From Ornithinimicrobium ciconiae (GTDB lineage: Bacteria > Actinomycetota > Actinomycetes > Actinomycetales > Dermatophilaceae), in the NCBI RefSeq assembly GCF_007197575.1, contig NZ_CP041616.1, positions 620,001 through 684,000 of the forward strand: DNA of 64,000 bases, in the 5' to 3' direction. A program made the position numbers and the translations under genes. Below are positions 1-10,552 of the stretch, one piece after another. Within the stretch, counting starts at the first letter, position 1. Every line of letters begins with the position of its first letter. The notes under the pieces were generated by a model that was given only the letters and a program-made list of their open reading frames with translations, did not search any database and was not told the origin of the DNA.

Positions 1-1141
1 TCGAGTGAGGAACGGGCGGAGGCAGAGGTGCAGGCGGGCGCGGGGCGCTCACGGCTGGGACGTGCAGAGCCCCGAGGGCGGTCACCTGTTTGCGGTCTCC
101 ACGAGTGCCGATCCGACCGGGCAGCACCTCCTCGAGGCGCCGCTGCAGGAGCGGTGTCATGCTGGATCCACCGGTTAGATAAAGCCGGTGGACCTCCGGC
201 GCGCCGGGTAGGTCACGAAGGAGGTTGAGGACCAGGCCGACGGCGCGGTCGATGTCGACCGCGACCAGTTCCTCGTACTCGTTGCGCGTGACGACACCGA
301 CCCATTCCTGGGTGCCTGCCATCACGCCGATGGTCTCGGATTGGTTCTCGCTCAGGCTCTCCTTGGCCGCTCGAACGTCCTCTCGCAGGGTCAACCTGGC
401 ACGGGTCTGGCGGGGGTGCTCAAGCTCGGCCAGCAGGTCCGGCGGGCCGTCCTGACACATCTGGTTCTGCGCCCAGGTCTCGAGACGGGAGTCGAAATCG
501 TGACCACCGAGCGGGTCGATGCCGTCAGAGTCCACCACCTCGTAGCGGCCGGTGCCCGCCTCGACGACGTAGCGCAGCAGCGCGGCGTCGCTGGTGCCCC
601 CGCCCAGGTCCAGCACGGCCAAGTAGGCGCCCGCAGGCAAGGGGTCGCCCGCGCTGTAATACCAGGCTGTGGCCAGCGGTTCGGACACCAAGCGCAGCCG
701 GTCCGCGGGTATGTCGGCCTGCTCGGCGGCAGCACGCAGCAGGCCGATCCGATGGGCGTGCCACGCCTGGGGGTGAGTGAGCACCACCTCGGTCGGCGGC
801 ACCTGGTCGGCATCGGCGAGGGCGTGCTCGTAGACCTTGCGCAGGATGGCTGCCACCAGTTTCACTGGTTGGATCAGATCACCATCGAGCAGGATCTGCT
901 CCTCTATGAGGCGACGTTTCGGGGTCGGTTCGTACCCAGCGGGATGGATCGCGGCCCCCCGTGTCGCGGCCGAGCCGGTCCTGATGTCGCCGTCCGTGAC
1001 CAGGACGGCCGACGGCATCAGGTGAGAGCTGGCAGACAATCGCAGCGGGTGCACCTGGCCCATGTGTTCGACTGCTGCGGCGGTATTCGTTGTGCCAAAG
1101 TCGATCGCCAGGCGCCAGCCCGTCCTCGCCTGACCCTCCAC
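1..1141 (-). CDS. Hsp70/DnaK-like ATPase, 3' end outside window
   Basis: Partial gene of at least 380 residues read from the right; its C-terminus lies beyond base 1. It starts at GTG 1141, preceded by a strong AAGGAGGAG ribosome site. The N-terminus carries the Hsp70 phosphate-1 loop (LAIDFGTTNTA), the middle has DLGGGTSDA (phosphate-2), and LTGGSSMTPLL is the adenosine motif, so the whole actin-fold nucleotide domain is present. The visible part ends in a Pro/Ala-rich linker, with no sign yet of a canonical substrate-binding domain. The promoter at 1184-1214 matches those of two neighbouring genes. It is probably a specialised chaperone-like ATPase rather than the housekeeping DnaK, because no grpE or dnaJ is adjacent. 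Confidence 0.88.
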   Translation of the reverse strand, partial: MEGQARTGWRLAIDFGTTNTAAAVEHMGQVHPLRLSASSHLMPSAVLVTDGDIRTGSAATRGAAIHPAGYEPTPKRRLIEEQILLDGDLIQPVKLVAAILRKVYEHALADADQVPPTEVVLTHPQAWHAHRIGLLRAAAEQADIPADRLRLVSEPLATAWYYSAGDPLPAGAYLAVLDLGGGTSDAALLRYVVEAGTGRYEVVDSDGIDPLGGHDFDSRLETWAQNQMCQDGPPDLLAELEHPRQTRARLTLREDVRAAKESLSENQSETIGVMAGTQEWVGVVTRNEYEELVAVDIDRAVGLVLNLLRDLPGAPEVHRLYLTGGSSMTPLLQRRLEEVLPGRIGTRGDRKQVTALGALHVPAVSAPRPPAPLPPPVPHS

Positions 1142-1183
1142 GGACTCCTCCTTGACTCCTTGACTCCCGTCGATGACCTGAGC

Positions 1184-1214
1184 CTTAGAGGCTGGGTGCG
1201 GCTCCGATGTTCCC
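1184..1214 (-). promoter_or_regulatory. ECF-type promoter of the Hsp70-like gene
   Basis: Read on the minus strand: GGGAACATC (1206-1214), a 15-nt spacer, then CTCTAAG (1184-1190), 43 nt upstream of the GTG start at 1141. The GGAAC-type -35 element is typical of ECF sigma factors. The same two boxes with the same spacing recur at 2553-2583. Confidence 0.72.
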
Positions 1215-1237
1215 GCAGACGAGGACCCCGACGGGTC

Positions 1238-2509
1238 TCATCCGTTGTTGGGCCGGCTCATCAGGCGGCCGGCGACCAGCGCCACGGGGATCAGGATCCA
1301 TGGGTGCTGCACCGCCCAGGCGGTGGTCTGCTCAAGGAAGGTGTCATCATCGGTCCCCAGTTCGGACAGGTCCGGATTCCGGATGGAGTCCAGGATCTCC
1401 TCGGTGTCGATGGGGGTGGGCTGCACCAGGTCGCCCAGCTCCTCGGACGTGACCGGTGCGGGCTGCGGCACGCTGTCCGTGGGCTCGACCACCTCCATCG
1501 CATCGTGGGGTGCTGAGCTGGGATCAGCGGTGACGTTGCTGGCGGGTTGTTCGACGAGTATCCAGGAGTGGTCGGAGTCCGCCCAGGCGTTCTCGAAGAG
1601 CCCCAGCGGGTACTCAGCCAGGTTCCCGCCAGGGGTGCCGGGATCGGACAGCAGGACGGTGCCCCGCTCGTGGTCGATGCCGGTGACGACAAGGGCATGG
1701 TCTGCTGCGTGGTCCTCCTGGGCTTCCCCGGTCCACAGTTCACCGCTGTCGACGGCCACGATGATGCTGTAGCCGGCGTCGAGCTGAGCCTCGAGTGAGG
1801 CCAGGTCACCGAAGCCCGACACGGCGGGGACGCCGACCTCGTGGAGGATGGCCACCCCACTGTCCAGGGTCAGGCCCGGGACGCCGTCAGGGCCGACGAC
1901 GAAGGCGCCGAGCTCGTTCGCTATGTCGACGAAGGCCTGCTCGTCGGTGAAGTCCATCCCGGTGTATTCCGAGACGACCTGGGCGATGCTGGCTGGTAGA
2001 CAGAAGCCATTGGCCGCCTGCTCAAACCAGTGCTGCGCGTCCCCCATCGGATCGCCGACCAGGCGACCGTCCTGCACCCACTGCTGCTCTCCGCCGCCCT
2101 CCGGGACAAGGTCTACCTCACCATCGGTCTGCCCAAAGGTGGTGTCCAGAAGCGCCACCAACTCCGGCTCGCTGGCGAGGACCTCGTCAGCGGACAGCCA
2201 CAGGTCCGACTCCACACCGGTGGGATCGCTCAGCAGGTAGCCGCCGTCGACCTCGCTCACGATCAGGTCAGCGACCCCGTCCCCGTCCAGGTCAATCCAT
2301 GCGGTGTCTGCTTCGGCGTCCCCGTCGGTGTCCTCGACGAGGACCGCGACGTCCCCGAGGGTGTACCAGGCACTCTCCAACCCGCTGTCCGGTTCCACCG
2401 CTGTGGCGTCCGGTCCCGAGCCGTCCATGACGAGCGTGGCCGGCTCGATCGGCGGACCAGGTGCAACGTCCGCCGCATCGAAGGTCGGATCTGCGTCGAA
2501 GCTTTCCAT
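1238..2509 (-). CDS. C39-like papain-fold peptidase with C-terminal anchor
   Basis: A 423-residue protein. Residues 1-140 are acidic and contain Asp-rich segments (DTDGDAEAD near 60-68, DLDGDGVAD near 73-81) like calcium-binding loops. The C39-like peptidase domain follows: candidate catalytic Cys170 in NGFCLPAS, His271 in DHALVVTGID and Asp289 in LLSDPG. The C-terminus ends in a short hydrophobic segment (about 402-414) followed by a basic, Asn-rich tail; no signal peptide is visible, so a tail-anchored cytosolic orientation is possible. It is divergent from the GTPase gene and has its own ECF-type promoter. The family assignment is firm at fold level; the substrate, and even proteolytic activity, is unknown. 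Confidence 0.8.
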   Translation of the reverse strand: MESFDADPTFDAADVAPGPPIEPATLVMDGSGPDATAVEPDSGLESAWYTLGDVAVLVEDTDGDAEADTAWIDLDGDGVADLIVSEVDGGYLLSDPTGVESDLWLSADEVLASEPELVALLDTTFGQTDGEVDLVPEGGGEQQWVQDGRLVGDPMGDAQHWFEQAANGFCLPASIAQVVSEYTGMDFTDEQAFVDIANELGAFVVGPDGVPGLTLDSGVAILHEVGVPAVSGFGDLASLEAQLDAGYSIIVAVDSGELWTGEAQEDHAADHALVVTGIDHERGTVLLSDPGTPGGNLAEYPLGLFENAWADSDHSWILVEQPASNVTADPSSAPHDAMEVVEPTDSVPQPAPVTSEELGDLVQPTPIDTEEILDSIRNPDLSELGTDDDTFLEQTTAWAVQHPWILIPVALVAGRLMSRPNNG

Positions 2510-2552
2510 GGTGCTCTCCTCTGTCGGGGCCAGCGCCCTCGGATCGTGACTG

Positions 2553-2583
2553 CTTAGAGCCGGAGCGGTGCCTTGATGTTCCC
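2553..2583 (-). promoter_or_regulatory. ECF-type promoter of the C39-like gene
   Basis: On the minus strand GGGAACATC (2575-2583), a 15-nt spacer and CTCTAAG (2553-2559), 44 nt before the ATG at 2509. Both boxes are identical to those at 1184-1214, while the spacers differ, which argues for selection on the boxes. Confidence 0.75.
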
Positions 2584-2605
2584 GCGGAGGGGATTGCTCG
2601 TGCTA

Positions 2606-2636
2606 GGGAACATCCGTAGGCTGCATCGACTCAAAC
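2606..2636 (+). promoter_or_regulatory. ECF-type promoter of the first dynamin-like GTPase
   Basis: GGGAACATC (2606-2614), a 15-nt spacer, then CTCAAAC (2630-2636), 49 nt before the GTG start at 2686. It is divergent from the promoter at 2553-2583, and the two -35 boxes form an inverted pair 22 nt apart. Spacing matches the other two promoters exactly; the -10 element differs by T to A at its fourth base. Confidence 0.7.
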
Positions 2637-2685
2637 AGCATGAGTCTGAACGCCCACCCCAGCAGTGCGTGGTGAAGGAGCCGAG

Positions 2686-4113
2686 GTGTCCCGTCTGCCC
2701 AACACCGGGGGAGTGGAAGCTGCTGCCGATGAGTTGCTGCTCAGGCTCAGCCGCACGGCGGGCCCAGGGGTCAAGGCCATTCTCGACGGGCACCGCGCGA
2801 GGCTGGCAGAGCCGCCCTTGGTCTTGATCGCCGGCCGGGTCAGTGCGGGCAAGTCCACGCTGGTGAATGCCCTCATCGGCGCCCGAGTCGCGCCCACTGC
2901 GGCCCGTGAGACCACCGCCGTCCTGACGACCTACCGGTTCGGGGCACCGGCGCGGGCCGAGGCGACGATGAAAGACGGGTCGAGCCAGCGGGTGACCATG
3001 GGGCACGACGGGCCGGACCTCGCCGCCCTGGGTGCAGACGACGTGGCCCACTTGACTGTCCACGTCCAGGAAGCCGCGCTGCGCAGATTCTCCATCCTGG
3101 ACACGCCAGGCCTGGGCTCAGCCATGACGGGCAATTCGGAGCACACCGAGCTCGCGCTGACAACGGCTGCCACGCACGGGGTTCGGCCGGATGTGGTGCT
3201 CTACGTCGTGCGCGACATGTTCCGTGCGGACGATGTGGCCTTCCTCGAGCGGTTCGCCCAGGCTTGGACCTCCGTCGCCGACCTCCCGGCGCAGTCTGGG
3301 GTGCTGGCTGTGCTCTCACACGCGGACAACTACGGGGCCGGTCCCTGGGGGGCTGTGGACCCGATGCAGGAGGCGCAGCGAGCAGCGGCTGAACTGCCCG
3401 ACACCCATGGCGTCCTGGCGGGTGCGGTGGCCGTCTCCGGGTTGCTCGCGGAGACCGTCCGCACCGGGCTGCTGCGGGAGCGGGACATCAGGGCGCTGCG
3501 GCTGCTGCGTGACGTGGATGATGACGATCTGCAGTATGCCGGATTGCTGGGGCCCGTGCCCGACGTGCCTCAGGAGGGTCTCGACCGGCTCACGGCGCTG
3601 CTGGGCGCCTACGGTGTGCGCCACGGTAGGCAACACGCGGATTCCTCCCCCGGCCTGCTGGACTGGGTGGAGGAGCTCAGCGGGATGCGGCCTCTCGAGC
3701 GGTTGCTTGAGGACGTCCTGGGCGCGTCCGGCGGTCTGGCCCGGGTCGACTCCATCCTCGGTGAGGTGACCACAATGGCGAGGCGAGAACGCTGGGGAGG
3801 GGAGCTGGAGAGTGCTCTCGAGGAGGCCCTTGCCTCACCCGAGTTTCACCGGCTCGACCAGTGGCGTGCCCTGGCGGAACTACGCAGGGCCTCTCCCGGT
3901 CACGAGCTCATCCCGGTCCTGGAGGCCCTCCAGCGGCAACCGGACAGGGTGCCGTCCCGTCTGGCTGGGGTCGGTGACACCGAGCCGCTCGCCCTGGCCG
4001 GCAGGTTCCAGGCCCTGGCCGGCACGGCGGGGACCGGTGCGGAGGCCCAGGCTGCACGGGTGCTGTCCCGGTCGATGATCCTGCTTGCGACGCATGGAGC
4101 ACAGTGGAGGTAA
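2686..4113 (+). CDS. dynamin-like GTPase (IniC-like)
   Basis: A 475-residue GTPase. GTG 2686 is preferred over GTG 2665 because GAAGGAG lies 5 nt upstream of it. G1 is GRVSAGKST (about 51-59), G3 is DTPG (about 139-142) and the G4 region reads LSHAD (about 211-215) in place of NKxD. The remaining ~250 residues are mainly helical and Leu/Arg-rich, as in bacterial dynamin-like proteins. Its size and pairing with a larger GTPase at 5121 resemble mycobacterial IniC and IniA, which are membrane-remodelling proteins. It is convergent with the sigma factor gene, and its promoter is shared in type with the Hsp70-like and C39 genes. Confidence 0.8.
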   Translation: MSRLPNTGGVEAAADELLLRLSRTAGPGVKAILDGHRARLAEPPLVLIAGRVSAGKSTLVNALIGARVAPTAARETTAVLTTYRFGAPARAEATMKDGSSQRVTMGHDGPDLAALGADDVAHLTVHVQEAALRRFSILDTPGLGSAMTGNSEHTELALTTAATHGVRPDVVLYVVRDMFRADDVAFLERFAQAWTSVADLPAQSGVLAVLSHADNYGAGPWGAVDPMQEAQRAAAELPDTHGVLAGAVAVSGLLAETVRTGLLRERDIRALRLLRDVDDDDLQYAGLLGPVPDVPQEGLDRLTALLGAYGVRHGRQHADSSPGLLDWVEELSGMRPLERLLEDVLGASGGLARVDSILGEVTTMARRERWGGELESALEEALASPEFHRLDQWRALAELRRASPGHELIPVLEALQRQPDRVPSRLAGVGDTEPLALAGRFQALAGTAGTGAEAQAARVLSRSMILLATHGAQWR

Positions 4114-4139
4114 GGAGCGCAGTGATGGTGGGAAGACGC

Positions 4140-4673
4140 TTACTCGTCCAGTCCGCGGATCGCGGCGTGGAGGGCCTGCCGCGCCCGGCTCAGGCGACTC
4201 TTGACGGTCTGGATCCCGACACCCTGATAGGTGGCGATGTCGGCATACGTGAAGTCGCAGAGTTCGAACAGCACGATGGCGACCCGGAAGTTCTCAGGCA
4301 ACCGGCGCAGCGCCAGCTGGATCAGGTCGGCGTCGGCCAGCGCCTGGGTGAACTCGGGCTTGACGACCTGATCGTCCGTGATATCACTGGGGATGTCCCG
4401 GCGCTTGCGGGACTGGTGCACGGCTGCGTTGGAGGCGACACGATAGAGCCAGGTGCTAAACCGGCTGTGGCCGCGAAACGAGCCGATGCCCCGCCACGCC
4501 GCAAGCAGGGTTTCCTGCAGGGCGTCCTCCGCGTCGTTCTGGTTGCCCGTCACACGGAGACAGACGGCCCAGATCAGGGTCCTGTGCTCGCTGACCAGGG
4601 CCTCGAAGGCCGCGTGATCACCACGACTGGCGGCTACCACGAGTTCCTGCTCGGTCGCTGCGCGCACGTCCAT
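4140..4673 (-). CDS. ECF-type RNA polymerase sigma factor
   Basis: A 177-residue sigma factor starting at ATG 4673. Region 2 spans about residues 20-95 (core helix with DAEDALQETLLAAWRG and the FSTWLYRVASNAA segment), and region 4 about 115-170, ending in a helix-turn-helix (YADIATYQGVGIQTVKSRLSRAR). There is no anti-sigma gene next to it: the neighbours are the two GTPase genes. Its location inside a locus with three matching ECF-type promoters makes it the obvious candidate to read them, though this is inference. Its own upstream region has a housekeeping-like promoter rather than the shared motif. Confidence 0.9.
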   Translation of the reverse strand: MDVRAATEQELVVAASRGDHAAFEALVSEHRTLIWAVCLRVTGNQNDAEDALQETLLAAWRGIGSFRGHSRFSTWLYRVASNAAVHQSRKRRDIPSDITDDQVVKPEFTQALADADLIQLALRRLPENFRVAIVLFELCDFTYADIATYQGVGIQTVKSRLSRARQALHAAIRGLDE

Positions 4674-4733
4674 CACGGTGGCCCCTTCACGGGAGTGGGG
4701 CTCGGACCCCGGAGGCCTAACGACTGCACCCGG

Positions 4734-4763
4734 AGCATAGCCAGCCGCCGCTCCCGCTGTAAA
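4734..4763 (-). promoter_or_regulatory. possible housekeeping promoter of the ECF gene
   Basis: Minus strand TTTACA (4758-4763), an 18-nt spacer and TATGCT (4734-4739), 61 nt before ATG 4673. It resembles a vegetative promoter and lacks the GGGAAC box seen at the other genes of the locus. Confidence 0.4.
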
Positions 4764-4834
4764 GGGATGAGCGGCGGGAAGACGGGCGAGGGCGCGCACT
4801 GCCCTGCAGGTCCGCGATCGGTGGCGTGGCGCTG

Positions 4835-5140
4835 ATGTCATCGCACGACGTGAACCTGGGCGACTGGCTGGCGACCCCAGAGGGTCCGCCCGAGCGCATC
4901 TGGCAGGCCGCCCTGCGCTTGACCGCGCCGGAGGAGGACCACGCCCACGACCACGCGGACGAGGTCGCCCATGACCACCCGGACGAGGTCGCCCACGACC
5001 AGAGCCTCGATGAGGCGGTCGGGGACTGTGCTGTTGAGGACGGTGACCTCGGCCTTGCCGACGCCGAACCTCACATCGCGGACGCAGGAGCCCCGATGCC
5101 CTACGACGGGGAGGACTTCGATGGCGACCCTTTCTCCTGA
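4835..5140 (+). CDS. small acidic protein with His/Asp repeats
   Basis: A 101-residue protein of unknown function whose 3' end overlaps the start of the large GTPase by 20 nt. The N-terminus (VNLGDWLATPEGPPERIWQA) looks like a folded helical segment; residues about 33-56 contain a duplicated HADEVAHDH/HPDEVAHDQ element; the rest is strongly acidic. The repeat could bind metal or simply be a flexible charged linker. ATG 4835 is the best-placed start; GTG 4826 is also in frame. The tight overlap suggests co-expression with the GTPase. In gene order it occupies a place like that of iniB beside the ini GTPases, but I see no sequence similarity to IniB. Confidence 0.6.
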   Translation: MSSHDVNLGDWLATPEGPPERIWQAALRLTAPEEDHAHDHADEVAHDHPDEVAHDQSLDEAVGDCAVEDGDLGLADAEPHIADAGAPMPYDGEDFDGDPFS

Positions 5141-6884
5141 GCACCTGACGGCCAGGCGTGTCGGACACGCCGCCTGCACTGCCGCCTGGTCACTGCTCAG
5201 GACGCACGACCAGCCAGTTGTCGCCGAGCAGGCGCAGGCCATCGCAGCAGGTCGACCGCACGCGCCGTCGGTTCTTTTCCTGGGGGAGCCGGGCAAGGGC
5301 AAGAGCACGCTGGTGCACTTGCTGTCCCCGCACGAGACCACTGCGTCGATGGAGGAGCGGTTGGTCAACCGCTACCGGCGCGTGATCCCGCCGCGCACCG
5401 GGAGCGCTCCTCTCCGGTGGCTGGGGGCCGAGGGCTCGGCGTCTGACACCTTCCACGAGGGGGCCGTGGGCGTGGAGGTGGAGTGGTCCTCCTGTGCCCT
5501 CGGCGACGATGTCGTCCTCCTAGACACCCCCTGTGAGGGTGGCATCGACGGACCCCAGGCCACGGTGAGCCGCATGTTGGTGCGGGCTGCCTCGGTCGGC
5601 GTCTTCGTCACAGACGCCGGAGCTCCCCTCCTGCAACCGGAGGTTGACTATCTGCGGGCCTACCTGCGCCCAGTCGACGCACTGGTTGTTGTTGTCACGA
5701 AGATCGACACCTTTCCGGACTCCTGGTCCGAGGTCGTCGAGACCAACACTCAGGTGCTGCGGGACCATCTCCGCAGCGGGATCCCGGTGGTGGGCGTCTC
5801 CACCACGATGGCCGCCCATGCCTACCGGCAGGACGACGAGGCCCGCCGCGAACTGCTGCTCCACAGGTCCGGGTGGACCGAGCTTCTCAGCGTCGTGTCC
5901 CACGAGCTGCGTCGGCATGCTGAGCTGCCGATGGCCAATGCCTTGCGGATGACCGAGGCGGGGCTGAAGGACCTGCGTTCGCACCTGGGGCAGCGGCTGG
6001 CGGTCACCCACGCCTCGGACCAGGATCTGGCAGAGGCCATGGCAGTGACAGAAGCCGAGGTCAACAGGCTCAAGGAGCGCCAGCAGGAGTGGACGTTGCA
6101 CTTCGACCGGGACATCGCCCTCGTCCGCGCGGCCCTCAGCAAGAACTCCGCCACCCGCTTGGAGGAGTGGCGAACCACGCGCCGGGCCGCTGTTCGTGAC
6201 ATCAAGAGGCTCTCCGGGGAGGCTCAGATCAGCGCCCTGGAGGAGGAGATCCAGCAGGAGCTCAACGCCATGCGCGCCCTGATCTTCTCCGAGGCGCTGG
6301 ACCAGCTGAGAGCGGTGCTCCGGGCGCAGGTCGGAGAGGCCCTGCAGGACGATCTGATCGACCAGTTCGGGGCGGAGCACGCGCCCGTCAACCGAGCGCT
6401 CGCGAGGGTGCTGCGCGATCCGCTCGATGTCAGTTCGGGACTGACCGGGTTCTTCGGTGCCAACCTGTCCTACAGCCTGGCCACATCTCTGCTGCACCTG
6501 TCCAACCCGGTTGGCCTGGCGCTCGCAGCCGCTGGCGGGATCGGGTACTTCGTGGCGCTGCGCACTGGCCAGCACGGCAAGAAGACGTTGAGCCAGATGG
6601 ACTACGAGCTCGCCCGTCTCGCCAAGGAGGAGCGGGAGGCCCTGGTGGGCCAGTGGGATCAACTGATCATTCAGTTGAAACCCGAGATCGTGCCCGCCTA
6701 CCGCAAGTTGCTAGGCCAGAAGATCCAGGAGAAGGGCGCCCTCTTGACCGAGCAGCGCAAACAACGCGGTGCCTCCATCAGTGAGGCCGAGAGATCACGC
6801 AAGGCCATCGAGGCAGCGATCCAGAGCGTGGATGACAGCCTCGTCGAACTCGAGAAGGCCCTGGGACTCCTGCGCGCGTTGTGA
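5121..6884 (+). CDS. dynamin-like GTPase with membrane segment (IniA-like)
   Basis: A 587-residue dynamin-like protein. ATG 5121 is chosen because GGGGAGG lies 7 nt upstream and the residues before it are a shadow of the small gene. G1 is GEPGKGKST (55-63), G3 LLDTP (about 133-137) and G4 VTKID (about 192-196). A long helical, charged middle (about 285-420) precedes a hydrophobic hairpin-like segment (about 443-480, with NPVGLALAAAGGIGYFVAL), then a coiled-coil tail. This order is that of bacterial dynamin-like proteins that insert a paddle into membranes. It is the larger partner of the GTPase at 2686, recalling the IniA/IniC pair. Confidence 0.85.
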   Translation: MATLSPEHLTARRVGHAACTAAWSLLRTHDQPVVAEQAQAIAAGRPHAPSVLFLGEPGKGKSTLVHLLSPHETTASMEERLVNRYRRVIPPRTGSAPLRWLGAEGSASDTFHEGAVGVEVEWSSCALGDDVVLLDTPCEGGIDGPQATVSRMLVRAASVGVFVTDAGAPLLQPEVDYLRAYLRPVDALVVVVTKIDTFPDSWSEVVETNTQVLRDHLRSGIPVVGVSTTMAAHAYRQDDEARRELLLHRSGWTELLSVVSHELRRHAELPMANALRMTEAGLKDLRSHLGQRLAVTHASDQDLAEAMAVTEAEVNRLKERQQEWTLHFDRDIALVRAALSKNSATRLEEWRTTRRAAVRDIKRLSGEAQISALEEEIQQELNAMRALIFSEALDQLRAVLRAQVGEALQDDLIDQFGAEHAPVNRALARVLRDPLDVSSGLTGFFGANLSYSLATSLLHLSNPVGLALAAAGGIGYFVALRTGQHGKKTLSQMDYELARLAKEEREALVGQWDQLIIQLKPEIVPAYRKLLGQKIQEKGALLTEQRKQRGASISEAERSRKAIEAAIQSVDDSLVELEKALGLLRAL

Positions 6885-6928
6885 CGCTGCTCGCGGATCT
6901 GCTCGCAGCATGGTGTGGGGCCCCCGGT

Positions 6929-9253
6929 CTAGACGTTGGGGGCGGCGACCTCAGGCTCGGCCTCCGTGCCGCCCCCACCGCGGCGCACCGCGGCCAGCAG
7001 CATCTGGGCGACGTCGACGACCTCGACCTCTTCGCGGGCGCCCTCGGACTGCTTCTCGGTGAGGCCGTCGGAGAGCATGACGCGGCAGAAAGGGCAGCCG
7101 ATCGCGATCCGGTCGGCGCCGGTGGCCAGCGCCTCCTCGGTGCGGTTGACGTTGATGCGGTTGCCGAGCTTCTCCTCCATCCACATGCGGGCACCACCGG
7201 CACCGCAGCAGAAGGACTTCTCCTTCGAGCGCGGCATCTCCCGCATCTCCACCCCGGGCAGTGCGCCGAGCAGCTCACGCGGCGGGGAGTAGACCCCGTT
7301 GTGCCGACCCAGGTAGCACGGGTCGTGATAGGTCACCGTCTCCGCGGTGGAGGCCACCCCCGTGGTGTCGGCCTCCTCCGGGCGGGCGACCGGGGTGAGC
7401 TTCTTCTCCCGCACCAGGCGGTTGAGCAGCTGGGTGTGGTGGACGACCTGATACTTGCCGCCCAGCTGGGGGTACTCGTTCTTGATGGTGTTGAAGCAGT
7501 GGGCGCAGGTCACCACGATCTTGGTGGCGTTGACCTCGTTGAGCACCTCGACGTTCTGCTGGGCCAGCATCTGGAAGAGGAACTCGTTGCCGGCCCGGCG
7601 CGCGGGGTCACCGGTGCAGGTCTCCCCGTCGCCCAGCACCGCGAAGCTCACTCCGGCGGTGTTGAGCAGCTCGGCCACGGCGCGGGTGGTCTTCTTCGCG
7701 CGGTCCTCATAGGCGCCGGCGCAGCCGACCCAGAACAGATAGTCGACCTCGTCGAGGTCCTCGACGTCCGCCCCGGCCACCTTGACCTCGAAGGGCAGGT
7801 CCTTGGCCCAGTCCATCCGGGCGCGGGCCGACATACCCCAGGGGTTCTGCTTGTTCTCCAGGTTCTTGAACAGCCCGCCCAGCTCGCTGGGGAAGGCCGA
7901 CTCGATCAGCGTCTGATAGCGGCGCAGGTCCACGATCATGTCGACGTGCTCGATGTCGACCGGGCACTGCTCAACGCATGCCCCGCAGGTGGTGCAGGAC
8001 CACAGCACGTCCGGGTCGATGACCGCGCCACCGGTGGGGATGGTCGGGTCGCCCTCGGTCGCGCCGACCAGCTCCCGCTGGGCCTCCAGCACCGCGGAGA
8101 GGGGTATGCCGTGCCGTGCCGCCGCCGACCCGTCACCTGTCACTCCCGCCGCAGGTGCTTCCGCCGTGCCGTCGCCAGCTGCGTCGCGGGCCTCCTCGGA
8201 GGCCATCAGCCACGGTGCTTTGGCGTGGTGGTGGTTGCGCAGGTTCATCACCATCATCTTGGGAGACAACGGCTTGTCGGTGTTCCACGCCGGGCACTGC
8301 TCCTGGCAGCGGCCGCACTCGGTGCAGGTGGAGAAGTCGAGCAGACCCTTCCAGGTGAAGTCCTCGATCTTGCCGACGCCGAGCGCGGCGTCCTCGTCGA
8401 GCTCCTCGATGTTCTCGAAGTCCACCGGCTCGCCACCGACCGCGATCGGCTGCAGCTCACCGAGGGAGGTGCGCCCGTCCGGGTGGCGCTTGAACCAGAT
8501 GTTGAAGAAGGCCAGGAACCGGTGCCAGGCCACTCCCATCGTGGGGGTGACAGCGATGGTGATCATCCAGCCCATGGAGATGAGGATCTTGACCAGCGCC
8601 ACCAGGACGATGGTGGTCTCCAGGGCACCTTCCGACATACCGTCGAAGAAGTTGCCGATCCATCCGGTGGTGGGGAAGTGGACGAAGTCGGCCCACTCTG
8701 CTCCGGTCGCCTTGCCGAGGGCGTACTCCAGGCCGCGCAGGGCCACGATGCACAGACCGACGCCGAGGATCACGAACTCCACGACATAGGCCTGCCAGAA
8801 GGTCGAGCCCCAGAAGCGGCTCTCGCGGTCGTGGGTGCGGGGGTGCAGTCGCTGGCGCAGCACGATCAGGGCGATGATGCCGATCAGGGTGCCCCAGCCG
8901 AACAGCTCGGCCAGCCAGATGTAGGGCGGCCAGTGCCCGATCAGGGGCAGCGCGAAGTGCGGGTTGAAGAGCTGACCGTATGCCGTGGCGAGGGTGGTCG
9001 TGAGCAGCAGGAAGCCCAGCATCACGAACCAGTGGGCGACCGCGACCATCGGCTTGCGAGCCATCCGGTTGTGCGCGAGGAACTCGCGCAGCAGGGTCAG
9101 CGTGCGGGCACCGGGCTCGTCGGTGCGTCCCGTGGCCGGCTGGCCCAGGCGGAACTTGGCGACGAAGCCGACGATGGTGCGCACGAAGAGGGAGACCGCG
9201 ACCAGGGTCACGCCCACGCCGAGCACGATGGCGATGATCTGCACCGGTGACAT
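6929..9253 (-). CDS. membrane Fe-S oxidoreductase, HdrD/GlpC-like
   Basis: A 774-residue respiratory-type reductase. The N-terminal ~250 residues contain about five membrane helices of the NarI/cytochrome-like type. Two ferredoxin-type [4Fe-4S] motifs follow: CTECGRCQEQCP (Cys310, 313, 316, 320) and CTTCGACVEQCP near 415-427. The C-terminal half has two CCG-type modules (WVGCAGAY, TCAHC, then DPCYLGRHN, CCGAGG and CPFC) as in heterodisulfide-reductase subunit D and glycolate oxidase GlcF. From memory, this architecture is that of mycobacterial Rv0338c, which adjoins the iniBAC dynamin genes. The electron donor and acceptor are unknown. It is convergent with the GTPase gene. Confidence 0.88.
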   Translation of the reverse strand: MSPVQIIAIVLGVGVTLVAVSLFVRTIVGFVAKFRLGQPATGRTDEPGARTLTLLREFLAHNRMARKPMVAVAHWFVMLGFLLLTTTLATAYGQLFNPHFALPLIGHWPPYIWLAELFGWGTLIGIIALIVLRQRLHPRTHDRESRFWGSTFWQAYVVEFVILGVGLCIVALRGLEYALGKATGAEWADFVHFPTTGWIGNFFDGMSEGALETTIVLVALVKILISMGWMITIAVTPTMGVAWHRFLAFFNIWFKRHPDGRTSLGELQPIAVGGEPVDFENIEELDEDAALGVGKIEDFTWKGLLDFSTCTECGRCQEQCPAWNTDKPLSPKMMVMNLRNHHHAKAPWLMASEEARDAAGDGTAEAPAAGVTGDGSAAARHGIPLSAVLEAQRELVGATEGDPTIPTGGAVIDPDVLWSCTTCGACVEQCPVDIEHVDMIVDLRRYQTLIESAFPSELGGLFKNLENKQNPWGMSARARMDWAKDLPFEVKVAGADVEDLDEVDYLFWVGCAGAYEDRAKKTTRAVAELLNTAGVSFAVLGDGETCTGDPARRAGNEFLFQMLAQQNVEVLNEVNATKIVVTCAHCFNTIKNEYPQLGGKYQVVHHTQLLNRLVREKKLTPVARPEEADTTGVASTAETVTYHDPCYLGRHNGVYSPPRELLGALPGVEMREMPRSKEKSFCCGAGGARMWMEEKLGNRINVNRTEEALATGADRIAIGCPFCRVMLSDGLTEKQSEGAREEVEVVDVAQMLLAAVRRGGGGTEAEPEVAAPNV

Positions 9254-9262
9254 GACGTGATC

Positions 9263-10552
9263 CTAGGGGGTCGGGGGGACGGGCTGGTGAGCACCTGCCG
9301 CGATGCCGATGCCCTGAGGGTCAGCACGGCGCGCCAGATCGGCGTCCCGTTCGGCGGAGTACGCCCTGGTCAGCGTGTCGTCGAGCTGGGTGAGCTGCTC
9401 GTGGAGGGGGCCGCGCCGCTCGCTCGGGGCGTAGTCGAGCAGGTCCTCGAGGGCGGCCCGCAGCCGGCGGGCGACCTGGGGAGAGCCGGAGCCGAAGAGT
9501 CGCAGCTCCTCAAAGCCGAGACGGACATAGGCCTGCCAGTCCATGGACGGGATGACCACGCGGATGGTCCCGTCGTCGTCCGACGAGGTGTCCTCGCGCA
9601 GCTCCCGGCGAGAGAGCTGGCGCAGCACGTCCTGCACCCGGTCCAGGACCTGCACCACCGTGGTCGGGTCGGCGTGCACCCTGTCGGCCATGGCCTTCAG
9701 TCCCATGGCCACCAGCATGCGCAGGCCATAGGCCACGTCCTCCTCCTGGCTGCGCTCCAGGGACAGGACCAGGGCGTCGCGGATCCCGTCGACGTCGATC
9801 TGGTCGACCGTGCTGCCGGAGAGACGGGCCAGCTTGCCGTCGGCGGGCACGAACTCGCCGACGGCCGGGATGACGTCGATGCGGCAGTCGGCCTCGACCG
9901 CGAGCGCGACCAGGTGTTCGCGACCGACTAGGCTCAGCACTCCGGACTTGTGCGCGGTGACGAGGCGGGGGTCGTCCTGGCCCACGTGCTCGAGGCGGTG
10001 CGGATACACCTCGTCCATCAGGTCGCGAGTTCCCTCGCTGACCAGCTCGATCAACGACGACACCCGCAGCTCGCGGCCGATGTGGTGGATATAGACGACC
10101 AGCACCACGATGTTGATGACCACCATGAGGAAGGTGGTAGCGACCGAGATGCCCGGCACGACGGGGGCGTCCTCGCTGACCAGGACCTGGCGCATGGTGA
10201 GCATCGCCTGCACGAAGGTGGCGACGAACAGCCCGATCGCGTGCTGGCTCGGTCGATCCTGCAGGAAGGTCTGCACGATCCGCGGTGAGAACTGCGCCAT
10301 CGCCAGCTGGACGACCACCATCGTGATGGACAGCACGGTGGCGACCAGGCTGACCATGGAGCCGGCGACGGCACCCAGGATGGCGAGCGCGGCGTCGGGT
10401 CCACCGATGACGTGGATCGAGACCACGTCAAAGCCGAAGTGGCTGTCCAGGGACGTGGTGACGAGGTTGATGACGATCCCGGCCACCGCATAGAGCAACG
10501 GGATGAACCACAGACCGCTGCGCAGGTTGCTGTAGATCTTGGTCAGCCACAT
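9263..10552 (-). CDS. DUF2254-type integral membrane protein
   Basis: A 429-residue membrane protein starting at ATG 10552 with AGGAGG upstream. The first ~170 residues contain four hydrophobic helices, with the typical family segment MAQFSPRIVQTFLQDRPSQ in a loop between them. The remaining ~260 residues are soluble and predicted cytosolic, rich in Val/Asp/Arg. Ten nucleotides separate it from the Fe-S reductase, so the two are probably cotranscribed. The biochemical role of DUF2254 proteins is unknown; the family label comes from recall of the conserved N-terminal pattern. Confidence 0.8.
   Translation of the reverse strand: MWLTKIYSNLRSGLWFIPLLYAVAGIVINLVTTSLDSHFGFDVVSIHVIGGPDAALAILGAVAGSMVSLVATVLSITMVVVQLAMAQFSPRIVQTFLQDRPSQHAIGLFVATFVQAMLTMRQVLVSEDAPVVPGISVATTFLMVVINIVVLVVYIHHIGRELRVSSLIELVSEGTRDLMDEVYPHRLEHVGQDDPRLVTAHKSGVLSLVGREHLVALAVEADCRIDVIPAVGEFVPADGKLARLSGSTVDQIDVDGIRDALVLSLERSQEEDVAYGLRMLVAMGLKAMADRVHADPTTVVQVLDRVQDVLRQLSRRELREDTSSDDDGTIRVVIPSMDWQAYVRLGFEELRLFGSGSPQVARRLRAALEDLLDYAPSERRGPLHEQLTQLDDTLTRAYSAERDADLARRADPQGIGIAAGAHQPVPPTP

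Follow-up and report, generated by a model that had tools for sequence, protein, structure and literature searches.

A recurrent gene set of dynamin-like GTPases, an Hsp70-like ATPase and a C39 peptidase in Ornithinimicrobium ciconiae: a possible membrane-surveillance module with its own sigma factor

The stretch of the Ornithinimicrobium ciconiae chromosome analysed here (the window, 64,000 nucleotides; G000:C1:620001-684000 in a complete genome of 4,092,907 bases) opens within a locus encoding an Hsp70-like ATPase, a C39-like papain-fold peptidase, an extracytoplasmic function (ECF) sigma factor, and a pair of dynamin-like GTPases resembling mycobacterial IniA and IniC. The same genes are grouped together again in other genomes, and five of the transcription units in this locus lie under one promoter-like element, the exact form of which is found nowhere else in the genome. 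We read the locus, tentatively and at a little under even confidence, as an accessory module for membrane surveillance that has its own sigma factor; its trigger and the role of its protease are what we infer.

A Promoter-Like Element Private to the Locus

Two back-to-back GGGAACAT elements were identified between the divergent C39 and IniC-like genes. In its general form, GGGAACA-N17-CTCnAA, which by resemblance we take to be an ECF-type -35/-10 pair, the element precedes five units: the genes for the DcrB-like and 521-residue proteins, the Asp-Gly-repeat protein gene, the Hsp70 and GrpE-domain genes, the C39 gene, and the IniC-like GTPase gene; all five have it 25 to 50 bases from the chosen start codon. 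The exact pattern occurs five times in the whole 4.09 Mb genome, each time within the locus (5/5), while base composition gives a chance expectation of 0.24 copies per genome and a reversed control pattern presented no copy in the same genome. Because the pattern was drawn by eye from four of these sites and two in another genome of the genus (G220), part of the enrichment is built in; only the search, and not the derivation, supplied the fifth site and showed that the exact pattern is confined to the locus genome-wide. The shared promoters of the original prediction are borne out as promoter-like sequences, in the shape of one element private to the locus in its exact form. The ECF factor encoded in the locus presumably reads this element.

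Among 32 loci scanned, the exact pattern was found only in the O. ciconiae locus (L009/L010) and in L034, L035, and L037. A relaxed form (last A dropped, N17-18 allowed) presented five of six copies within the locus in O. ciconiae, 3/3 in Terrabacter (G721), 2/4 in G220, 1/4 in Spirilliplanes, and 0/9 in Nakamurella, the locus of which is truncated; no copy was present in the G524 and G302 genomes. The sole relaxed copy outside the O. ciconiae locus lies at genome positions 3573374-3573403 on the minus strand. A related sequence, GGGAAC-N17/18-CATCCAA, was recognized by eye before two genes of a Rhodococcus plasmid locus (L169). No stable RNA structure was found between the C39 and IniC-like genes (z -0.41).

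Recurrence across Phyla and on Plasmids

A cross-phylum search of genome contigs, for which only the C39 alignment was used, yielded 14 loci, of which 11 contained an IniA-like GTPase, eight an IniC-like GTPase scoring over 50 bits, and ten an Hsp70; the loci with an IniA-like GTPase came from Actinomycetota, Planctomycetota, Desulfosarcina, and Bacteroidota. This comparison of neighbourhoods upheld the association of Hsp70 and C39 genes with dynamins, an exception being the weaker C39 matches of one genus (f22 g76, below), at least some of which are unlinked. The four actinobacterial loci (L034-L037) include an IniA-like gene in every case, IniC-like and ECF genes in three each, and Hsp70 in two, with L034 and L036 stopping at contig ends. 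Seven of the ten other loci carry both an IniA-like GTPase and Hsp70, namely four from planctomycetes (L039, L041, L043, and L046) and those from Kuenenia (L040), Desulfosarcina cetonica (L042), and a Muribaculaceae metagenome-assembled genome (L045); a Ruminococcus locus (L038) presented Hsp70 (Pfam E 1.9e-5) and C39 with no dynamin, and L044 (a 5.2 kb contig) and L047 presented C39 only. The gene row in Kuenenia reads DnaJ, C39, IniA-like, IniC-like, Hsp70. Sigma genes adjoin the module in Desulfosarcina and one planctomycete, and the Muribaculaceae locus contains a sigma-like gene below the Pfam cut-off, a kinase, and PP2C. In Desulfosarcina, the sigma factor is followed by an 828-residue fusion of zf-HC2, kinase, and C39 parts (the last below the Pfam cut-off, yet 94 bits by a local profile), and then by the GTPases and Hsp70; this fusion ties the peptidase to sigma control.

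Plasmid records matched the C39 protein of the window in 27 cases and that of Desulfosarcina in 12, the two sets overlapping. Seven plasmid loci were opened with hidden Markov model (HMM) searches; both GTPases were present in all seven, Hsp70 in six (the stretch from strain BH4 ends first), and an ECF factor in six (all but Anabaena). Three of five annotated Rhodococcus stretches list a dynamin family protein, a GTPase, an Hsp70 family protein, a C39 family peptidase, and a sigma-70 family factor; the USK13 annotation has no dynamin coding sequence, the BH4 annotation has no Hsp70 within the stretch, and a R. opacus record carries no annotation. On the Anabaena plasmid, a DO-GTPase gene lies between Hsp70 and C39 (E 2.7e-15), with a CHAT gene upstream. 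A gene with a PDDEXK nuclease domain was observed just after the sigma factor on three Rhodococcus plasmids (L169 11108-12178, L170 10949-12019, and L175 11120-12190). A scan of viral contigs found no relative, and carriage by viruses was therefore rejected. These similar sets in distant phyla suggest an undescribed response to membrane damage or a defence response.

Phylogeny of the Two GTPases

The large GTPase has no Pfam dynamin match, and IniA is its only sequence match in the PDB at E values up to 1 (7.3e-10). A structural model (pLDDT 75, 11 sequences) has its best match in IniA (6j72, E 4.3e-16), followed by BDLP, with low TM-scores (0.34). Compared with the DTPG or DSPG of other aligned rows, the protein and its close lineage have DTPC; by alignment, Val stands at the switch-I Thr position, where the G220 orthologue keeps Thr.

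Both GTPases were placed in trees with their Ini relatives, and neither is an IniA or IniC orthologue. A quick maximum-likelihood tree built on 92 rows places the large GTPase in a 21-row group outside the 62-row canonical IniA clade (support 100), the inner order being unsure due to several long branches; L131, L142, L144, and L149 (under 350 residues or 120 bits), the duplicate L035, and L058 and L150 were omitted. In a tree of 81 rows, the small GTPase falls outside the 58-row canonical IniC clade (support 97), although the deepest fork has a support of only 76. The resemblance to iniBAC put forward in the original prediction therefore holds for the presence of an Ini-like GTPase pair and not for orthology; the IniB-N profile likewise had no match in L009 or L010, and no IniR-like gene turned up in the gene map, where no profile search was aimed at IniR.

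Gene content of the two groups was counted by HMM matches within the fetched stretches. The 21 loci of the group that includes the window contain an IniC-like gene in 20 cases, ECF in 17, GrpE in 17 (over 24 bits, that of the window taken from L009 and that of Terrabacter at only 25 bits), Hsp70 in 15, an Asp-Gly-repeat protein in eight (nine with that of the window), C39 in six, and the Fe-S reductase in two; the C39 count is biased, as all six loci were either the start of the search or found via C39. The 62 canonical loci contain IniC in 59 cases, an Hsp70-like gene in 51, IniB-N in 38, the Fe-S reductase in 17, and an AAA protein of the injection-system type in eight.

An IniA-type match at E 1e-15 was present in 71 of 394 genomes of the class. 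O. ciconiae itself has a canonical IniA (E 1.9e-91 to IniA 6j72) with an IniC-like gene at 3.92 Mb. This canonical pair (L011 6157-9798; L058; genome 3.92-3.93 Mb) lies near Pvc16/DUF4255-like genes, AAA genes, and a further Hsp70 that has hydrophobic segments (names by eye), a layout that recalls contractile-injection-system loci and is similar in L059-L061; baseplate-like genes, also named by eye, adjoin IniA, IniC, and Hsp70 in L062 and L071. A third pair of dynamin-like GTPases in the same genome (L012 6292-9623, genome 3.162-3.166 Mb) presumably resembles DynA/DynB. In L074 (12265-14260), two small GTPases that look DO-GTPase-like by eye directly adjoin an IniC/IniA-like pair. In part of L092-L110 and L135, loci that are mycobacterial-looking by gene content, Hsp70-like genes bearing a hydrophobic segment flank IniB-N, IniA, and IniC on one or both sides, and many of these loci have a match to the Fe-S reductase within the stretch.

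Gene Content of the Locus

Genes were mapped by codon-position GC gene calling and Pfam (Table 1). Every gene named in the original prediction was recovered where it had been placed; as for the extent of the set, it runs about 5 kb beyond the left end of the window, and the Fe-S reductase is excluded from it.

Table 1. Features of the locus; positions are those of the window unless marked as genome positions
Feature	Position	Strand	Evidence and remarks
DcrB-domain protein	genome 615302-615793		Pfam E 3.8e-7
521-residue protein	genome 615790-617355		no Pfam match
175-residue Asp-Gly-repeat protein	genome 617875 to 617348 (L009 9348-9875)	-	
408-residue GrpE-domain membrane protein	genome 619236 to 618010	-	C-terminal GrpE, E 2.4e-8
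Hsp70-like ATPase, first 380 residues in window	1..1141	-	Pfam HSP70, E 7.2e-25; whole gene at genome 619330-621141, 603 aa
Promoter-like element, Hsp70 and GrpE unit (GGGAACA-N17-CTCTAA)	1185..1214	-	ECF-type by resemblance
C39-like (C39_2) papain-fold cysteine peptidase, N-terminal Asp-Gly repeats, hydrophobic C-terminus	1238..2509	-	Pfam E 1.6e-6
Promoter-like element, C39 gene	2554..2583	-	ECF-type by resemblance
Promoter-like element, IniC-like gene, back to back with that of C39	2606..2635	+	pair recurs in G220 (L034)
IniC-like small dynamin-family GTPase, 475 aa	2686..4113	+	Pfam Dynamin_N, E 7.8e-11; IniC tree
ECF sigma factor, 177 aa	4140..4673	-	Sigma70_r2, E 4.1e-19; r4_2, E 1e-13
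Small acidic protein	4835..5140	+	profile from four such acidic proteins
IniA-like large GTPase, 587 aa	5121..6884	+	PDB sequence match IniA, E 7.3e-10; best structural match 6j72
Fe-S (HdrD-like) membrane reductase, flanking core gene outside the module	6929..9253	-	genus distribution and synteny
DUF2254 protein	9263..10552	-	Pfam

The Hsp70-like ATPase comprises a nucleotide-binding domain, a proline-rich linker, a hydrophobic segment near residue 425, and a tail of about 150 residues (delimited by eye); as the best Pfam HSP70 stretch covers only residues 86-359, no substrate-binding domain is recognized. The GrpE-domain protein has hydrophobic segments near residues 14 and 249 and, read by eye, may consist of a signal, an outer part, a transmembrane helix, and a cytosolic GrpE domain. 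A hydrophobic segment after the ATPase domain was present in 52 of 57 canonical-clade Hsp70-like proteins vs. 6 of 19 in the group of the window, counting those long enough to judge; the full-length Hsp70 of the window, judged apart from these 19, has the segment. C-terminal partners of the Hsp70 differ among loci and include FGE-sulfatase, TPR, ankyrin, beta-helix, FHA, and PQQ propeller modules. The original prediction had regarded Hsp70, C39, and ECF as additions to the Ini system. All three do belong with the dynamins, as indicated by recurrent linkage and the private promoter-like element, but an Hsp70-like gene is common at canonical IniA loci; an Hsp70 peculiar to this locus was rejected on the count of 51 of 62 given above (52 minus L088, a plain DnaK; plain DnaK matches were filtered out by a motif rule). 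In M. smegmatis, a dnaK-like gene beside iniR is described together with iniR and iniB* in the part of PMC5760070 available to us.

Cys170, His271, and Asp289 of the C39 protein are invariant in 23 aligned homologues, and the corresponding C61/H161/D182 columns are invariant in a nine-row cross-phylum alignment; these are the predicted catalytic residues of the papain fold. A model of the protein (pLDDT 63) resembles the C39 domains of ComA and PCAT and staphopain. The C-terminal stretch, described in the original prediction as a tail anchor, is conserved but only moderately hydrophobic (19-residue hydropathy 1.29). In the small Asp-Gly-repeat protein, the repeats keep a 13-residue register (starts at 7, 20, 33, 46, 59, 85, and 98), and such a repeat is also found at residue 73 of the C39 protein. 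The small acidic protein is a possible anti-sigma factor or adaptor; some other loci encode acidic proteins of similar size, tentatively homologous, near an ECF or IniC gene. The DcrB-domain protein shares 57% identity over 126 residues with its counterpart in the Terrabacter locus, and the 521-residue protein 29% over 470 alignment columns (E 4e-17) with a protein of the same locus.

C39 matches at E 1e-10 were found in 18 of 394 genomes of the class, and in 3/186 genomes of the family, 1/396 of an order sample, and 1/334 of a planctomycete phylum sample, the single positives of the last two being the centre genome itself; only a few candidates are scored in each genome by these searches, and low counts are therefore minimum values. 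Among the 18, the C39 match is strong and linked in G000 and G524, and weaker in G552 and G377, which have an IniA-type match 1.7 and 4.6 kb away from it; the other 14 are genomes of one genus (f22 g76) with weaker matches, mostly to the peptidase domain. C39 matches megabases from IniA in two of these (G229 and G305) led us to reject a constant linkage of C39 to dynamins. Of the genomes of this genus with matches (G290, G305, G384, G463, G505, G542, and others), most have several weaker C39-like matches, apparently unlinked to dynamins where coordinates were compared. A profile search of a protein database returned 1830 relatives of the cross-phylum C39, without genomic context.

Flanking Fe-S Reductase and a Possible Insertion Site

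The Fe-S reductase, which had been predicted to be part of the gene set, is a core flanking gene: it is present in all 31 genomes of the genus, vs. a large GTPase match in five and an orthologue in only two (O. ciconiae and G220, at 69%). The reductase neighbourhoods of 12 relatives contain a CysE-like gene (named by eye) in 12/12 cases and a homologue of the O. ciconiae binding-protein gene at 609160 in 6/12; no dynamin, Hsp70, or C39 match was found in these fetched stretches. On this synteny, the reductase was rejected as a module partner. Since the reductase is core and the orthologue rare, the module is present at this site in only a minority of genomes of the genus; it was perhaps inserted as a segment of about 15 kb (estimated bounds 612-627 kb), with loss in other genomes as the alternative.

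Proposed Mechanism and Alternative Explanations

Under the membrane-surveillance reading, the sensor and switch would be the Hsp70-type ATPase, which has a membrane segment, a putative outer tail, and the GrpE-domain membrane protein as its partner. Its signal, aided by the C39 peptidase and possibly by the acidic protein, would free or activate the ECF factor. The latter would then fire the five promoters and amplify the response, and the IniA/IniC-like pair would remodel or seal the plasma membrane after the manner of IniA, for which membrane cutting in vitro and a suggested role in membrane repair are reported in the available part of PMC6715688. The Asp-Gly repeats of the C39 protein and of the separate small protein may bind calcium entering via the damaged membrane. 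In favour of this reading are the private promoter-like element, the recurrent linkage, the sigma genes beside the module in other phyla and on plasmids, the zf-HC2, kinase, and C39 fusion of Desulfosarcina, and the finding that 17 of 21 loci of the same GTPase group have a GrpE-type domain within the stretch. Several points weigh against it: the C39 tail would make a weak anchor; calcium binding is read from sequence alone, the repeats being calcium-loop-like; the distant C39 genes of genus f22 g76 indicate that this kind of peptidase is not always linked to dynamins; in most Hsp70s of the same group, the ATPase domain is not followed by a membrane segment, so outward sensing would not be general; the large GTPase departs from two catalytic motifs; and neither the sigma gene nor the acidic and IniA-like genes are preceded by the exact motif, which thus covers neither autoregulation nor control of the IniA-like gene. 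The patchy spread and variable Hsp70 modules also suit a defence role no less than a repair role.

The chief competing reading to membrane surveillance is phage defence. Here the locus would be a biological-conflict system, anti-phage or inter-bacterial, in which an invader is detected by an Hsp70-type ATPase with exchangeable sensors, and the C39 protein and dynamin pair, as effectors, kill the cell or wall it off; we consider this a real possibility, though doubtful. In its favour are the sporadic spread (2/31 for the large GTPase orthologue; 3/186, 1/396, and 1/334 for C39), carriage on plasmids in Rhodococcus and Anabaena, the fusions of Hsp70 to FGE-sulfatase, ankyrin, TPR, beta-helix, FHA, or PQQ-propeller modules, and the genes for a DO-GTPase and a CHAT protein that neighbour the module in Anabaena; conflict systems combining GTPase, HSP70, and GrpE are described in the part of PMC7159879 available to us. 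However, no nuclease or NADase was recognized in the locus of the window, where one protein, of 521 residues, has no Pfam match; PADLOC, run on eight proteins, gave only general dynamin-type models (LeoA, LeoBC, and mad8); the viral-contig scan found no relative; and the ECF factor, with the outward-facing tails on the Hsp70 and GrpE-domain protein of the window itself, points outward.

A strict Ini operon, that is, an iniBAC orthologue that confers tolerance to cell-wall antibiotics and has the Fe-S reductase as its partner, is improbable. While IniA is both the closest structure and the only PDB sequence match of the large GTPase, and 17 of 62 canonical loci have a reductase match in the fetched stretch, this reading is already weakened by the trees, which place both GTPases outside the canonical clades, and by synteny, the reductase being core and unlinked in relatives; the canonical IniA elsewhere in the genome and the lack of an IniB-N match in the locus also stand against it. 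That the locus matures or exports peptides, with C39 cleaving double-glycine leaders, is very improbable: the peptidase domains of ComA and PCAT are among the matches of the C39 model, but neither a peptide exporter nor a leader-like small peptide turned up among the locus genes, in a map made with no scan aimed at them. A bolder extension of membrane surveillance, which we think unlikely, is an as yet undescribed membrane-wound response shared across phyla, in which Hsp70s without a substrate domain but with exchangeable sensors would switch a C39 protease and a dedicated sigma factor, deploying the dynamin pair to excise or seal membrane; the protease would sense calcium via the 13-residue Asp-Gly repeats, in a functional parallel to calpain.

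Comparison with Known Systems

No description of this gene combination was found in the open-licence PMC literature, and the available portions of PMC8195603 and PMC7016017 contain nothing on it. Like mycobacterial IniBAC/IniA (6j72; available parts of PMC6715688 and PMC5760070), the module pairs a large and a small dynamin-like GTPase, and an Hsp70-like gene lies near most canonical loci (51/62). Unlike IniBAC, it has an ECF sigma factor and C39, GrpE-domain, and Asp-Gly-repeat proteins, has no IniB-N match, and its GTPases lie outside the canonical clades. Similarity to LeoA/LeoBC bacterial dynamins (PADLOC models) also lies in the dynamin-like GTPases, with the LeoBC model matching residues 51-578 of the large GTPase (E 2.8e-13); to our knowledge, the Leo systems have no Hsp70, C39, or sigma partner.

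The module also resembles the DO-GTPase/GAP1-N2 conflict systems (Kaur et al. 2020, PMC7159879), which, in the part of the text available, combine GTPases, HSP70 (also without a peptide-binding domain), and GrpE in a constant core with variable modules; ECF, C39, and dynamin have 0 occurrences in that paper. Both HSP70 (E 7.2e-25) and GrpE (E 2.4e-8) of this theme are present in the locus of the window, and the DO-GTPase gene in the Anabaena copy is a further likeness. The GTPases of the module are, unlike those of the conflict systems, IniA/IniC-like dynamins, and no DO-GTPase or GAP1 family was found among the Pfam matches of the window-locus proteins scanned. The module, which is present in named Rhodococcus and Terrabacter isolates, joins the mycobacterial Ini dynamins with GTPase/Hsp70/GrpE conflict systems and has a promoter-like element that, in this genome, belongs to it alone. 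Hsp70-type ATPases with exchangeable C-terminal modules stand beside dynamin pairs in several phyla. The role of bacterial dynamin pairs becomes directly testable here, with induction, target promoters, and partners readable from one locus.

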